Shown here in pieces: positions 24,230 through 29,030 of a stretch of 40,000 nt of DNA. The DNA is from Acidobacterium sp. (GTDB taxonomy: Bacteria; Acidobacteriota; Terriglobia; Terriglobales; Acidobacteriaceae), in the NCBI GenBank assembly GCA_003166955.1, contig PMUI01000035.1:1-40000 (forward strand), in the 5' to 3' direction. The position numbers and the translations under genes are program-made. Each line of letters opens with the position of its first letter. Position 1 is the first letter of the stretch. A model generated the notes under the pieces. The model was not told the DNA's origin, did not search any database, and saw only the letters and a list, made by a program, of their open reading frames with translations.

Positions 24230-24276
24230 TGTCATCCTGACGCTGAGCGCAGCGAGGCGGAAGGATCTGCGGTTGT
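24230..24276 (+). repeat. Dispersed repeat, copy 1 (TGTCATCCTGACGCTGAG type)
   Basis: Shares TGTCATCCTGACGCTGAGC, an inner imperfect palindrome, then GGAAGGATCTGCGGTTG with two further copies. Copy 1 has GCAGCGAGGCGGAAGG in the centre. Confidence 0.9.
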
Positions 24277-24353
24277 TTTCCCTGCTGCCTCAGTGCGTCA
24301 GTTACTTCCGGTTCGACCGTACACACCGACAGGCTCAATCGTCACCCTAAACG

Positions 24354-24402
24354 TGTCATCCTGACGCTGAGCTTCGCGAAGCGGAAGGATCTGCGGTTGT
24401 TC
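24354..24402 (+). repeat. Dispersed repeat, copy 2
   Basis: Same 5' and 3' arms as copy 1; the centre reads CTTCGCGAAGCGG, a self-complementary loop that differs from copies 1 and 3. Lies 45 bp before the GIY-YIG gene. Confidence 0.9.
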
Positions 24403-24446
24403 TTCTCTGCGATCCAGCCCGTACCGCCAGCCCAGGACGGGGTCCC

Positions 24447-24785
24447 ATGCACGAGGGCAATTACTCCACGTACATGATGGCCAGCCGCAGTCACACTCTC
24501 TATATCGGAGTCACCGGCGATCTGCTCCGCCGCGTCTTCGACCACAAATGGAGGGAGCACGATGGATTCACTGCCCGCTACAACTGCGATCGTCTGGTGT
24601 GGTTCGAATCCCACCTGGACGTCGACAGGGCGATCGCACGGGAAAAAGAGCTGAAAGGATGGCGGCGAGCAAAGAAGATCGCGCTCATCGAAACGGCCAA
24701 CCCGACCTGGGTGGACCTGAGCCGCGACTGGTACGATCTCGAGCCCGCCGACTACAGCCGAGCCCTCGACCGCATGAACTCATAA
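24447..24785 (+). CDS. GIY-YIG nuclease family protein
   Basis: A 112-residue single-domain GIY-YIG protein. The first motif is modified to STYMMASRSHTLYIGVTG (TYM in the GIY position, YIG kept at about 19-21), followed by the catalytic-type Arg in DLLRRVFDHK, then FTARYNCDRLVWFE and AIAREKELKGWRRAKKIALI with the conserved Glu, and NPTW near the C-terminus. Many such short proteins (UPF0213-like) are of unknown role; the fold cleaves DNA in homing endonucleases and repair enzymes. It is enclosed by three copies of a dispersed repeat (24230, 24354, 24891), all in the same orientation. ATG at 24447 is needed to include the first motif. Confidence 0.9.
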   Translation: MHEGNYSTYMMASRSHTLYIGVTGDLLRRVFDHKWREHDGFTARYNCDRLVWFESHLDVDRAIAREKELKGWRRAKKIALIETANPTWVDLSRDWYDLEPADYSRALDRMNS

Positions 24786-24890
24786 CCGCAACCGCCCTCG
24801 TCTAACCCGGAATCAGGAACTCAGAGCAGGGAAGCAGCGCCCGAGCCAAAACCCGGCGCTTCCCCCAATCACGTCCACCCCCCAGACCCA

Positions 24891-24936
24891 TGTCATCCTG
24901 ACGCTGAGCGCAGCGAAGCGGAAGGATCTGCGGTTG
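24891..24936 (+). repeat. Dispersed repeat, copy 3
   Basis: TGTCATCCTGACGCTGAGCG then CAGCGAAGCGGAAGGATCTG CGGTTG; same orientation as copies 1 and 2 and on the far side of the GIY-YIG gene. Confidence 0.9.
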
Positions 24937-24971
24937 CCCTTGTCTCCCGTGAAGCCGTGCCGCCGGTAAAG

Positions 24972-25133
24972 CCCCGGCCTTCAGGCCGGGGACCAGAGCA
25001 CAAAACACGAGGCCTTTAGGCCCGGAGCCCTTTGTCGGGGCTACTCTCCATCACCGTTACGATCTATGCTCTGGCCCCGGACCCCGTATCAGGGCATGAC
25101 CTTGGTCGTGCCGTAAAACAGGCCCGCAGGGCC
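24972..25133. repeat. Cluster of four GC-rich hairpins
   Basis: Palindromes follow one another: CCCCGGCC-TTCA-GGCCGGGG (24972-24991, perfect), GGCC-TTTA-GGCC (25011-25022), GGCATGACC with GGTCGTGCC (25093-25112, one G-T pair), and GGCCC-GCA-GGGCC (25121-25133). None has a T tract. They look like short intergenic palindromic repeats of the REP type. Confidence 0.7.
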
Positions 25134-25199: not shown

Positions 25200-27989
25200 C
25201 TAAAACCCGTACTTCTCTTTCCTCATCTCAAAAGCCTCGCTGCCACCGTCAAGCAGGTCTATTATCGCGTTCTTGATAGCACGATTCTCTATAGCATCTT
25301 GCTCGGCAATACCAGCGTAGTCATGGGTTGCAGTGAGGTAGATGACTTGATCGGCGTCGCCGTTGACGACAATATTCGCATCGTGAGTCGCAAGAATGAC
25401 TTGCCTGCGGCCTTTCAGGCGGCGTAAAGCCGGAAGGACTGTATCTCGAAGGTAGCTCTTATCCAGTTCGTCCTCTGGCTGGTCGATGACAAGGGGGCAA
25501 TTGTTTTCGCTCGACAAGAGCAAAGTGAGCAGTAGGCTGACTTGAGCTCCGCCCGATAGTTCCTCCATCCGCTTGTAAGCTGGAGGGTTGTCCGCAACCC
25601 TCATTTGCAACTCGTAATAATCCTCATTTCGGAGCGAATAAAGCTCCACTTTGCGTTTGGCGGTCATGCACTCGCGAAATGTGGCGGAGACTTGCGCACT
25701 CATGCCCAAACACTCAAGGTGGTTAACTTTGAGCAATCTAAGCATTGTCGCGGGCGATGCTAGGGATCGCAAAGCTCCTAGGTCATTCCACCACCGTGTT
25801 ATGCCCTTCTCTTTGAGGTCGAGCAGCCAGCGTTCTAAATTGTCTCGGATTCCGTCCTTAATCTGTGAGAGGCGAATAGCGCCACCGAACCTCGAATCCA
25901 TCGCCAGACCCAGCTTTGCCATCTCCGTGCGATGCTGTTCGACGAGTTGGTCCCTGTTCTTACGAAGTCGGCGAAATTCACGCAACATTCCCCTCAAAGA
26001 GGCTCGATGGACTTTATGTACGGAGGTTGCGGCTTCGAACGCTGAGGCTAGTCTGGTGAGATCGTCGAAGCGGTTCAAATCCTCCGCACTCCCGCCTGCC
26101 TTCACCAGTGCTTCCTGAACGTCCTGCTTCGTCTTTTCCTCGCGAATCTCGGCAGAAACCTCAGCCCGACCAAATTCACGATCCATGCGCACAACGAGCA
26201 TACGAGCGAGTCGCATGGTGGCACGGAAGCGACGAAAAGCAGCGAGAACGCTGGGGCTGCAAGCAATTTCCGCAATGTCGGCGTTCGCCGGCTTAGGCCG
26301 CGGAAAGGATCGGGCTTGAGCCGCGACGTCCGATATCGATTGCAGAAGGGACGCCAAATGACCCCTTGCCGTCCCGATCATACCCGTGTCTTTTTGAGCC
26401 AAGGTCAGCTCGGAGGCGCCGATTTGCTCAAACGTATCGAGCGTTTGCTTTGCGGTCGCGGCTGTCGCTAGTGCCTGTTCAGCCTCAGCCAATTCTCCCC
26501 TCGTCGCCTCAATGCGCAACGCGACAGCCGTCAATTTATCGTCCAGGTCCGCTAACCTCGATTCGCTACTTAGTAGGACCTCAGTGCTGAGGGGTGCCAG
26601 ATGGTAGAGGATCTTGCGCAAGCCCTTCTGATCTCGGACGGCTTGCTGTAATTCTCGCTGAGTGAAGAACTCGGCTGGCCATCGAGTTGACAGCGGTTCC
26701 GACGTGCTGATGGGACCGCGAACAACCGGCAGAATCGACGGGTTCCCAGACTGGAATCTATGCGTTGCCCTCGCTGAGACATCATTCCTCACCTGCTCGT
26801 CCTGGGGCATCGGTCGCCCGAAGTACTGTCGAAGACCGTCAAGCACTGTTGATTTGCCCGACATTCGCCCTCCAATAACGACTGTTAGGTCGGGATTGAA
26901 GAGGAAGGTTTGAGAACGCGGGGTATTGGTCTTCGAATCAGTTCCCGCAAAAAAAGAGGTTCCACCGGAAATGGACACGCTCTTCAGCCAAGGGCGATCC
27001 GCCGCCACGGGATCTGGCAAATCGCTTAACACGAAGTTATCGTTCGAATCCCTTCTGTAGGCGAGCCGAAGCCGAGAATCTTTCGCCAGCATTGCCTGCC
27101 GGAGAGCCTCAATTGTCGGCCTCGCCAGCTTAAGCAAGACGAATCGACTACCGAGCTGACGATCAGCTACGGACGAGGAGGCGGAGAAAGAGTATGCGTC
27201 GCTGGAGTGGACGAACGTGTGGTGGTATTTCTCCATCGCTGGTTGCATCCACGGCCTCCCCTTAAGCTCGTCCTCGGGGAGGCTGTTGTCGCCAAGTTCC
27301 AACGCAGCAATCCACTCGTGCGGGAAATTCTCGAGCATCTGGCTCTTTAGAGCGAAGAGGCCCTTCCCATTGTCGAATGCATGGGGAGCAATACACATCC
27401 AATCCCACCTATTCTTCTCCTCTTTCTGCAAGCGAACCAGCGACTCAAACACAACCTTGGCGCCACATGGGGACATCCGGAGATTAGCTCCGTCCCAAGG
27501 ATTGGTCCCTGCCATGACGCACTGAAAGGCTCGTAGGTAAGTGTCCCGGCCAATACTCGGATCGAAGAGAAAAAGCAGGTGGACCCCGCGCGAACCATCC
27601 GCCAAACTCGGCTCGAAACCCGGAAAAACGGCATAGATTTTCTCAATGAACGGCACGCCATCATCGTCAATTCCGTTCAGCCACTCCTCCACAATCCGCC
27701 ATGTGGTGCTTGTATTGTCGCCGGCACCGGCACGAGGACTGTGCGGCGTTAATCCCAGAACCTCGATTCCGTGTGCGACCGCAGCCTGAAGCAGCTTGCG
27801 AGCGTACGAGAGCTGTACATTCGGGTCATCCGCGTTGCCGCAGAGCCCAACGGGCCATTTGAGATTTGGAGAAAAATGATCATCAAGAGTATGGACATGT
27901 AAGTCACATCTGAACCATCTTGCCCCTGGTACTTCCGTATGCCACCGTTTGCCCTGCGCAGCCAGCGCGGGCGCCGCCCGGGAACCCAT
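25200..27989 (-). CDS. PHP-domain / SMC-like ABC ATPase fusion (TrlF-like)
   Basis: About 929 residues from the ATG at 27989, which has GGAGG six bases before it. The N-terminus (about 25-300) is a PHP-type phosphoesterase: metal-binding DLHVHT, LTPHSP, IAPHAF and FVHSSDAYSF supply His/Asp ligands. From about 370 comes an ABC ATPase with Walker A GGRMSGKST, a long helical region (about 440-780) with coiled-coil character (ESRLADLDDKLTAVALRIEA), then signature ELSGGAQVSLLLTLLL, Walker B CPLVIDQPEDELDKSY and switch ILATHDANIVV. Databases hold such fusions as TrlF-type ATPases; PHP-SMC-like proteins are suspected of nucleic-acid cleavage, often in defence. It stands alone, with no partner gene, and its base composition looks lower in GC than its neighbours. 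Confidence 0.85.
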   Translation of the reverse strand: MGSRAAPALAAQGKRWHTEVPGARWFRCDLHVHTLDDHFSPNLKWPVGLCGNADDPNVQLSYARKLLQAAVAHGIEVLGLTPHSPRAGAGDNTSTTWRIVEEWLNGIDDDGVPFIEKIYAVFPGFEPSLADGSRGVHLLFLFDPSIGRDTYLRAFQCVMAGTNPWDGANLRMSPCGAKVVFESLVRLQKEEKNRWDWMCIAPHAFDNGKGLFALKSQMLENFPHEWIAALELGDNSLPEDELKGRPWMQPAMEKYHHTFVHSSDAYSFSASSSVADRQLGSRFVLLKLARPTIEALRQAMLAKDSRLRLAYRRDSNDNFVLSDLPDPVAADRPWLKSVSISGGTSFFAGTDSKTNTPRSQTFLFNPDLTVVIGGRMSGKSTVLDGLRQYFGRPMPQDEQVRNDVSARATHRFQSGNPSILPVVRGPISTSEPLSTRWPAEFFTQRELQQAVRDQKGLRKILYHLAPLSTEVLLSSESRLADLDDKLTAVALRIEATRGELAEAEQALATAATAKQTLDTFEQIGASELTLAQKDTGMIGTARGHLASLLQSISDVAAQARSFPRPKPANADIAEIACSPSVLAAFRRFRATMRLARMLVVRMDREFGRAEVSAEIREEKTKQDVQEALVKAGGSAEDLNRFDDLTRLASAFEAATSVHKVHRASLRGMLREFRRLRKNRDQLVEQHRTEMAKLGLAMDSRFGGAIRLSQIKDGIRDNLERWLLDLKEKGITRWWNDLGALRSLASPATMLRLLKVNHLECLGMSAQVSATFRECMTAKRKVELYSLRNEDYYELQMRVADNPPAYKRMEELSGGAQVSLLLTLLLSSENNCPLVIDQPEDELDKSYLRDTVLPALRRLKGRRQVILATHDANIVVNGDADQVIYLTATHDYAGIAEQDAIENRAIKNAIIDLLDGGSEAFEMRKEKYGF

Positions 27990-29030
27990 ATTCAACCTCC
28001 AGCGGAGATACTGTTTGTTACTCTACCGCCGATAGTTGCGGGCACAAGAGCAGATCGGCCTGATAAGTTGGCCTCTCGTAAGATAAGGGGCGCGCGAGCC
28101 CAAGCTAGCCGCTCGCCCACGGTTCCCCAAAAACCCGAAATCCCCAAAAACTGTCAAGCCCCAGCCCCAAAAAACCGAAGTAATGACCCCTCATTCCAAA
28201 TAACTTCCACGCCAAAATATTTGGCAGTTTTATTCTCTCCACCTGATATCCTGAATATATAGATAGAAAAAAGAAAAAGGCCGCCCGAGCGCGGCCTTTT
28301 CCCTTTAGAACAGGCTCTTTCCCGAACGCCAAACACCAAACGCCCGCCCGAGCAATGGAATGAATGAGAGGAGACCGAAGCCATGCAAAATCAAACGAAT
28401 GGAGCCTCGAAACCCAGAAATGGCAGCTAAATCCAGCCAGCTCAGCCACTTGAGATCTAAACCGCCTGCAATGAATCGATTGCACTCGGCCATGAACCAT
28501 CAACCCAAGCAGAATGAAACACTTAGCCTAAAATGGCCAAGGGGGTGGCCAGGCAGGCGGGCTCTAAGCGAGCAGGGGGGTCCCCTAGTGCTCTCTGTGT
28601 CCTCTGTGGTGGAGTGCTCAGCAAGGAGAAACTCCTCTCAAATCAAATACAAGCCCGCAAATCCAGCCGAATCAAATACATCGGCTCAACTCATATTGTC
28701 GAGTTTGTCAACAGAGCGCAAAGTCCAGAAATTTCAAATACATGCAAAAAACAGGCCCTGTCAGAAAAACACAGTTTCTTGAACCCAGTGCCTCAACAAA
28801 AGTGCAAATCGGTCAGGTCGAGCGGAGAGGGTCCGAGTTCCGTCACGACCGCCCCTTGACATTTTTCACCCAACCCCGCCATCATGTTTCACCCAGCTTC
28901 CCGCCGTCTTTGAAGCTGTCCTTCCGAGGGGCATCCGTTACCTTTGCGCATCGGCGCCGGCCGAGCCGCGCAACTACCGGCAAGCCGCTGTGTTCTTGCC
29001 GTGAACCTGACCCACCCAGGAGGCTTCCTC
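27990..29030. other. About 1 kb without a recognised gene
   Basis: The long minus-strand frame at 28105-28503 is rich in Phe, Trp and Arg and has no family feature, so I do not call it. The stretch is unusually AT-rich for the window (for example 28195-28275 and 28625-28790) and includes an orphan terminator-like hairpin at 28275. It contains fragments that look like general intergenic repeats, such as CTCTGTGTCCTCTGTGGTG near 28591. It may hold a non-coding RNA, but I see no known family. Confidence 0.5.
28275..28304 (+). terminator. Terminator-like hairpin without an obvious gene
   Basis: A 10-bp perfect stem AAAAGGCCGC (28275-28284) / GCGGCCTTTT (28291-28300), six-base loop, preceded by an A-rich tract and followed by CCCTTT. 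No plus-strand gene ends before it, and the minus-strand reading meets the A-rich tract as T-rich sequence, so it could end a minus-strand transcript entering from upstream. Confidence 0.55.

Follow-up and report, generated by a model that had tools for sequence, protein, structure and literature searches.

Within the window, the 40,000-nucleotide stretch of an Acidobacterium sp. contig analysed here, a single-domain GIY-YIG nuclease gene lies among three copies of a palindromic repeat, and the arrangement raises the question of whether gene and repeats together form a mobile unit. It recalls the REPtron, in which a small RAYT (TnpA-REP) gene is framed by inverted tagged palindromes, and which is accompanied by dispersed gene-free inverted dimers and by orphan repeat families. 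The reading that we favour, and consider probable, is that the GIY-YIG gene and its flanking [C/T]GTC-tagged palindromes constitute a REPtron-like mobile unit in which a GIY-YIG nuclease replaces the RAYT.

The repeats and the nuclease gene at the window locus

The three repeats around the GIY-YIG gene described in the initial annotation were recovered at their positions, each measuring 46 bp (Table 1). The open reading frame matches the PF01541 GIY-YIG profile (E 3.7e-10; score 40.4 bits, cut-off 22.6), and the protein has an 81% identical homologue in an Acidobacteriaceae MAG (contig profile scan, two-sequence alignment).

Table 1. Features of the repeat-framed GIY-YIG locus (positions in the window)
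Feature	Position	Strand	Remark
Repeat copy 1, TGTC-tagged imperfect palindrome	24230-24275	+	46 bp
Repeat copy 2, TGTC-tagged palindrome, upstream repeat of the unit	24354-24399	+	46 bp, 47 bp before the start codon
Stand-alone GIY-YIG nuclease gene, 112 aa	24447-24785	+	PF01541 match
GCAACCGC stub	24788-24795	-	possible remnant (inner end) of an inverted copy on the right
Repeat copy 3, TGTC-tagged palindrome	24891-24936	+	46 bp

When the 5.41 Mb host genome was searched for the repeat, as the initial annotation had proposed, a strict pattern gave 3 matches, all at the window locus, and a looser pattern gave 7, of which 3 were at this locus (reversed control, 0). Within the 40 kb window, the left-end motif GTCATyCyGA occurs only at the 3 repeat copies. 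The host genome holds three PF01541 matches: the window gene, a small gene on contig C116 having 54% of residues in common with it, and a 713-aa open frame taken to be UvrC. The small C116 gene is also framed by related TGTC-tagged repeats, while none were found at the locus of the 713-aa frame. As relatives have ...GCAACCGCAGATCC... near the corresponding place, the GCAACCGC stub that follows the window gene may be a remnant of an inverted right-hand copy.

Two neighbouring features were recorded. Just 3' of repeat copy 3, a further palindromic stretch, GCCCCGGCCTTCAGGCCGGGG, spans 24961-25025 and is possibly a second repeat family; a piece 80% similar to it lies near the aldolase gene of the congener G241 (L184, 1025-1089). 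Beside the unit, a 931-aa open reading frame (25200-27995, minus strand) resembles, by eye, a protein with a PHP-type N-terminus and a large ATPase part; near the aldolase of the 11 congeners compared, nothing clearly matches its portion up to 26499.

All three window copies share the nested hairpin ATCCT-GA-CGCT-GA-GC-NNN-GC-GA-RGCG-GA-AGGAT, whose stems are set apart by G/A mismatches; the outer stem has 5 bp and the tail is CTG. An inner palindrome varying in sequence with its symmetry kept had been claimed for every copy; the nested hairpin is indeed common to all, and the perfect inner palindrome GCTTCGCGAAGC is confined to copy 2. The accompanying suggestion of selection on structure is not provable from the window, because its three copies differ too little, and draws its support from a wider set. 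Among 18 hand-picked strings of the same 38-base class as the window repeats, the 4-bp block was paired in 68 of 72 cells (CGCT/AGCG, CCCT/AGGG, CACT/AGTG, CGTT/AACG and CGCC/GGCG) and the 2-bp block in 31 of 36. Partner swapping between elements left pairing at 0.80 and 0.70, respectively, so that the excess is clear but modest. Compared with mononucleotide shuffles, the inner segments of 79 longer repeats had greater stability, with a median z of -2.5 and 48 of them below -2. Palindromic structure is thus kept in the wider set while the repeat sequence varies. By eye, some palindromes of genome G119 are made up of nested 6-base modules, several per palindrome, each with a 4-bp stem and a GA mismatch.

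In an alignment of 16 protein sequences, the invariant positions include Y9, Y19, G21, R29, H33, E66 and N85; catalytic roles are generally assigned to the conserved Y, R, E and N positions of GIY-YIG nucleases. The gene is under purifying selection: dN/dS of the window gene was 0.04-0.10 against four relatives (L014, L046, L064 and L066; dS 1.1-4.5, near saturation) and 0.30 against the C116 gene, dS being saturated against L056. In-frame stops occur in 6 of 80 fetched gene copies. In a profile search of solved structures (E <= 0.01), only 1zg2 and 1ywl were matched (E 5.4e-9 and 1.5e-5). Both are UPF0213 proteins, which likewise consist of a single GIY-YIG domain of about 95-112 aa; relative to such small proteins, the repeat-associated ones form a closer subfamily. 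Some of the small GIY-YIG genes are annotated as excinuclease ABC subunit C.

Association of tagged repeats with GIY-YIG genes

With a two-sequence profile, the gene was detected in 198 of the family's 300 genomes, which represent 61 of 79 genera; a single genome can hold up to 11 copies. We analysed 81 loci, namely the window and 80 others hand-picked from the E-sorted matches listed, a choice that favours closer relatives. The density of a loose left-end motif fell from 4.18/kb in the 300 bp next to the gene to 0.30 over 300-600 bp and to 0.05-0.15 at distances above 600 bp. Of the 81 GIY-YIG genes, 75 had the motif within 300 bp and 65 had it on both sides, the figures for control open reading frames of the same loci being 32 and 1 of 317; the repeats are therefore not evenly spread, and the excess near GIY-YIG genes that the initial annotation had set as a test is present. 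Six loci carried no motif within 500 bp; tag or stem variants could be recognized by eye in five of these (L053, L065, L083, L088 and L123), and none within 500 bp in L077.

Where both sides had repeats within 500 bp (67 loci), the pair closest to the gene was inward-inverted in 45, direct in 18 (10 and 8) and outward in 4. The exact '> GIY <' layout, with one inward repeat per side, was seen in 26 of the 81 loci, and many loci thus deviate from a simple inverted pair, which tells against the favoured reading. The prevailing layout of the unit is thus an inverted pair. The same-orientation repeats first noticed are real in the window, which departs from the usual layout with its direct copies.

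A second test was independent of any motif: the longest exact word common to both 300-bp flanks, direct or inverted, was determined, and a locus passed if this word had at least 13 bases. Compilation of the results revealed that (i) in the family, 66 of 76 loci passed (5 of the 81 being left out for short flanks) against 7 of 309 control open reading frames, the longest word being direct in 34 and inverted in 32; (ii) in the plasmid collection, 12 of 16 loci passed against 1 of 73 controls, the four failures being Rhizobium tumorigenes, Photobacterium, Spirosoma and Sphingomonas; (iii) of 40 GIY-YIG loci found in IMG/VR contigs, 35 were analysed, five weak or partial matches being left out, and among the 31 whose flanks both measured 150 bp or more, 26 passed against 2 of 41 controls, although several contigs have near-identical flanks and are not independent; and (iv) in a search of the phylum, where 76 of 199 genomes have a homologue, 29 of 30 loci were scored, the window being left out, and those whose homologue exceeded 100 bits passed in 17 of 21 cases, 12 of these 21 coming from the window's own family and being partly the same genes as in the 81-locus set. 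Homologues below 66 bits had a common flank repeat in 0 of 8 phylum loci; all 8 belong to other families, so that subfamily and lineage are confounded here. Outside the family, not all common flank words carry a GTC tag. The impression, voiced in the initial annotation, that such repeats stand beside GIY-YIG genes in other bacteria holds for both the plasmid loci and the IMG/VR contigs.

That ordinary REPs might happen to lie beside a small gene deserves a thought, such repeats being common in some genomes. This chance reading is refuted by the control open reading frames, among which any-sided and two-sided occurrence is as low as given above, by the distant homologues and by the motif-free tests, and we assign it practically no probability.

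The repeats could also belong to a RAYT/IS200-type transposase, the GIY-YIG gene being a passenger. Y1 transposase genes were present in 8 of 8 genomes tested, and the layout and the dimers described below do resemble REP/REPIN arrangements. From these eight genomes, 50 Y1 matches were obtained and 30 loci retrieved, of which 3 incomplete ones were left out; the motif was found within 500 bp of 0 of the 27 remaining Y1/RAYT-type loci, as against 14 of 20 GIY-YIG loci drawn from seven of these eight genomes, 13 of them with the motif on both sides (25 matches, 5 left out). The tag, too, is GTC (TGTC in the window) rather than the GTAG of REPtrons, and Di Nocera et al. (2013; PMC3733652) found CGTC units on the flanks of no gene for a tyrosine transposase. 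A passenger gene is on this evidence highly improbable.

Presence, absence and dispersal of the units

Whole units are present or absent at matching sites in relatives, as is known for an insertion sequence or MITE. In Azospirillum lipoferum, the unit lies between sufB and sufC, in a gap of 617 bp; the gap without the gene measures 91 bp in A. ramasamyi, 87 bp in A. oryzae and 129 bp in strain B510, and no tagged hairpin is visible in these three short gaps. Among the 12 Azospirillum records listed, only A. lipoferum matches more than 64% of the query. The acidobacterial genome G238 has repeats spanning query positions 1314-1773. Its flank alignment with G485 stops at 1292 and resumes at 1805, and that with G177 stops at 1288 and resumes at 1865; the flanks are 64 and 78 bp apart, respectively, with no gene and no visible tagged palindrome at either site. 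Downstream, the alignment of this query begins at 1792-1815 in 27 of 29 congeneric loci.

In Sinorhizobium meliloti Ak57 (L128), a full unit adjoins an internally deleted one, which keeps approximately the last 30 codons between two repeats and looks like the formation of a non-autonomous derivative. Sinorhizobium K101, with flanks 95% identical to those of Ak57, has no gene and a single fused palindrome at the site, made of the left part of one repeat joined to the right part of the other. The unit present in Shinella WSC3-e is missing from H4-D48, their flanks being about 80% identical. In a Sinorhizobium medicae record, all that is left of the gene is a decayed 5' piece, which offers no clean presence/absence comparison. 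At the window site, the gene was found within ~1.4 kb downstream of the aldolase in 0 of 11 congeners; the downstream neighbourhood differs, and no two-sided empty site was seen among these 11. Target-site duplications and base-exact junctions are unreadable in these comparisons, because the relatives with empty sites are only about 72-97% identical over the flanks.

These sites bear on the main rival explanation, REP-site homing, according to which a free-standing homing endonuclease cuts tagged palindromes and repair copies its gene into the cut repeat. Free-standing GIY-YIG homing endonucleases exist in phages (Seg type), and they share with the present genes the nuclease fold, the stand-alone gene and the spread of that gene; we know of no Seg-type member with palindromic terminal repeats of its own. 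That some GIY-YIG enzymes are homing endonucleases is also stated in PMC1564403. The fused palindrome of the gene-less K101 is what would be expected of a target split by the unit, but it is equally explicable as a deletion product. Unlike Seg-type homing, the units here also occupy sites where relatives have no repeat, as in A. ramasamyi, A. oryzae, G485 and G177.

The likeness of the repeats argues in the same direction. Scored in genomes contributing several gene copies, repeats on opposite sides of one gene had a mean score of 33.2 (52 pairs), against 18.5 for repeats of different genes in the same genome (145 pairs) and 16.5 between genomes (3179 pairs). The repeats of one unit are thus far more alike than those of other units of the same genome, which speaks against homing, although local duplication or gene conversion could be an alternative source of this likeness. 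Taken together, we regard homing as unlikely.

A domesticated host function would have the nuclease process or resolve palindromes during replication or repair, with the repeats gathering through regulation or recombination. It agrees with the low dN/dS in four comparisons (at high dS) and with the wide retention of the gene across the family, but it sits poorly with the several copies per genome, the different sites occupied in relatives (including the window site and its 11 congeners), the in-frame stops and the unit-specific likeness of the repeat pairs, and we judge it decidedly unlikely.

Gene and repeats co-vary, as the initial annotation had anticipated for a mobile unit. Besides the absence of whole units at matching sites, genome-wide counts of one repeat pattern were higher in genomes with the gene (mean 5.6, median 2; 198 genomes) than in those without (mean 2.3, median 0; 102 genomes), with a Mann-Whitney P of 9e-6 that ignores kinship and counts the gene-flanking copies in. 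Four gene-free genomes hold 22-27 repeats (G169, 27; G264, 26; G030, 25; G032, 22), which counts against the favoured reading; orphan repeat families therefore exist. Repeat-rich genomes of the family include G142 (125 copies), G242 (82), G119 (63), G160 (51) and G270 (46).

Genome G165 has one GIY-YIG gene and 25 pattern matches, of which 24 are identical and one lies beside the gene. Of the 23 copies away from the gene that were read, 19 are inverted dimers with sharp ends, most with a ~24-base spacer, and these dimers have the same ends as the repeats of the G165 gene unit. With a near-identical dimer population and one resident gene, G165 (L277-L296) is a good system for population studies. 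In its gene framed by inverted repeats (45 of 67 family loci) and its dispersed copies (G165), the system resembles the REPtron, the window differing by its direct copies; the REPtron enzyme is a Y1 HuH transposase, whereas here it is a GIY-YIG hydrolase (PF01541).

In the mechanism that we propose, the unit, roughly 450-700 bp in size and usually of the form repeat> gene <repeat, would carry the repeats as its terminal recognition sites. The nuclease would probably recognize and cut the tagged hairpin, or its cruciform or single-stranded form, and the cut would allow the unit, or a copy of it, to enter intergenic sites. Repeat-only dimers (repeat> short spacer <repeat) would be non-autonomous and probably spread in trans, like REPINs with RAYTs. 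Of the mobile-unit interpretation put forward in the initial annotation, the association and the presence or absence of whole units are borne out; movement caused by the nuclease itself, its cleavage of the repeat, the DNA form cut and the steps of cutting and joining are what we infer.

Relation to CGTC-tagged REPs

CGTC-tagged REPs were defined by Di Nocera et al. (2013; PMC3733652), the accessible portion of which reports them from five phyla, Acidobacteria not being among those named, and describes a superfamily that includes dRS3 of Neisseria and RPE-4 and RPE-6 of Rickettsia and lists S. meliloti. According to the same portion, these REPs apparently have no dedicated transposase, and their mode of spread was left open.

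The window repeats share with this superfamily a [C/T]GTC tag standing directly before a stem that starts with AT (TGTC-ATCC...GGAT in 3 of 3 copies). Inverted (HH) dimers, the prevailing form of CGTC REPs, make up 19 of the 23 copies read in G165, while the window has three direct copies. The CGTC REPs have an uninterrupted stem of 8-9 bp, a loop of 4-5 nt and the tail CCA, a form that the window copies do not show; in the acidobacterial repeats, G/A mismatches interrupt the stem, the inner palindromes vary and the tail is of the CTG type. Because stem and tail differ, the window repeats are classed here as relatives, not members, of the four published CGTC families. Consistently, a perfect-stem CGTC scan of the 81 family loci misses the acidobacterial repeats, giving just 3 near matches.

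The plasmid collection contained 34 records with a homologue, 16 of which were fetched, from Pseudomonadota, Cyanobacteriota and Bacteroidota. In 8 of these 16 loci, perfect-stem CGTC/TGTC hairpins lay no farther than 500 bp from the homologue; a further case (Spirosoma) is doubtful. Classical CGTC REPs stand beside the gene in Aeromonas, Neisseria, Sinorhizobium meliloti, Neorhizobium, Rhizobium CIAT894, Shinella and Azospirillum lipoferum; the eighth locus, Photobacterium, counts little because its far copies (11) outnumber the near ones (2). Hairpin density was 2.06/kb near the gene and 0.16/kb far from it, Neisseria alone contributing 12 of the 33 near copies. On looser inspection, tagged repeats were also seen in Planktothrix, Novosphingobium, two Sphingobium records and Spirosoma, and none in the Rhizobium tumorigenes and Sphingomonas paeninsulae loci. 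The common flank word of Sinorhizobium C101 would, on our reading, represent a CCTC-tagged form of the repeat.

Two records merit separate mention. On plasmid p1 of Planktothrix agardhii (L125), the GIY-YIG gene and its TGTCATTCTGAG repeats are embedded in a set of DISARM defence genes, with an MmeI-type gene on one side and drmA on the other. CP090106.1, recorded as a pSymB plasmid, measures 3.7 Mb and carries gltA, lpxB and bamA; it is probably a mislabelled chromosome.

A literature search, whose coverage excluded most subscription journals and bioRxiv, gave no link between GIY-YIG genes and REP-type repeats among the matches listed, and the novelty of this link is provisional. Matches to words of the repeat sequence were all unrelated, judging by titles and the beginnings of abstracts. 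In the accessible text, PMC9465073 names a GIY-YIG gene and a RayT gene in one pangenome table, and PMC6006769 gave a single match, where it cites Di Nocera.

The wider proposal makes the small GIY-YIG nuclease the enzyme dedicated to all branches of the [C/T]GTC-tagged REP superfamily, which would amount to a REPtron of a second kind. A hydrolytic GIY-YIG nuclease, not a HuH transposase, would then spread both hairpin-ended units and repeat dimers. Taken jointly over dRS3 of Neisseria, the rhizobia, Azospirillum, the cyanobacteria, Bacteroidota and Acidobacteria, we hold this proposal to be evenly balanced between true and false.

To our knowledge, no insertion sequence family has a GIY-YIG nuclease as its sole enzyme. 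If our reading is true, the locus would represent a mobile unit built on a nuclease fold that is not known in that role in any insertion sequence, and a widespread group of small GIY-YIG genes would gain a function. For CGTC REPs, thought to have no enzyme of their own, the framed and conserved nuclease gene is a concrete and testable candidate.
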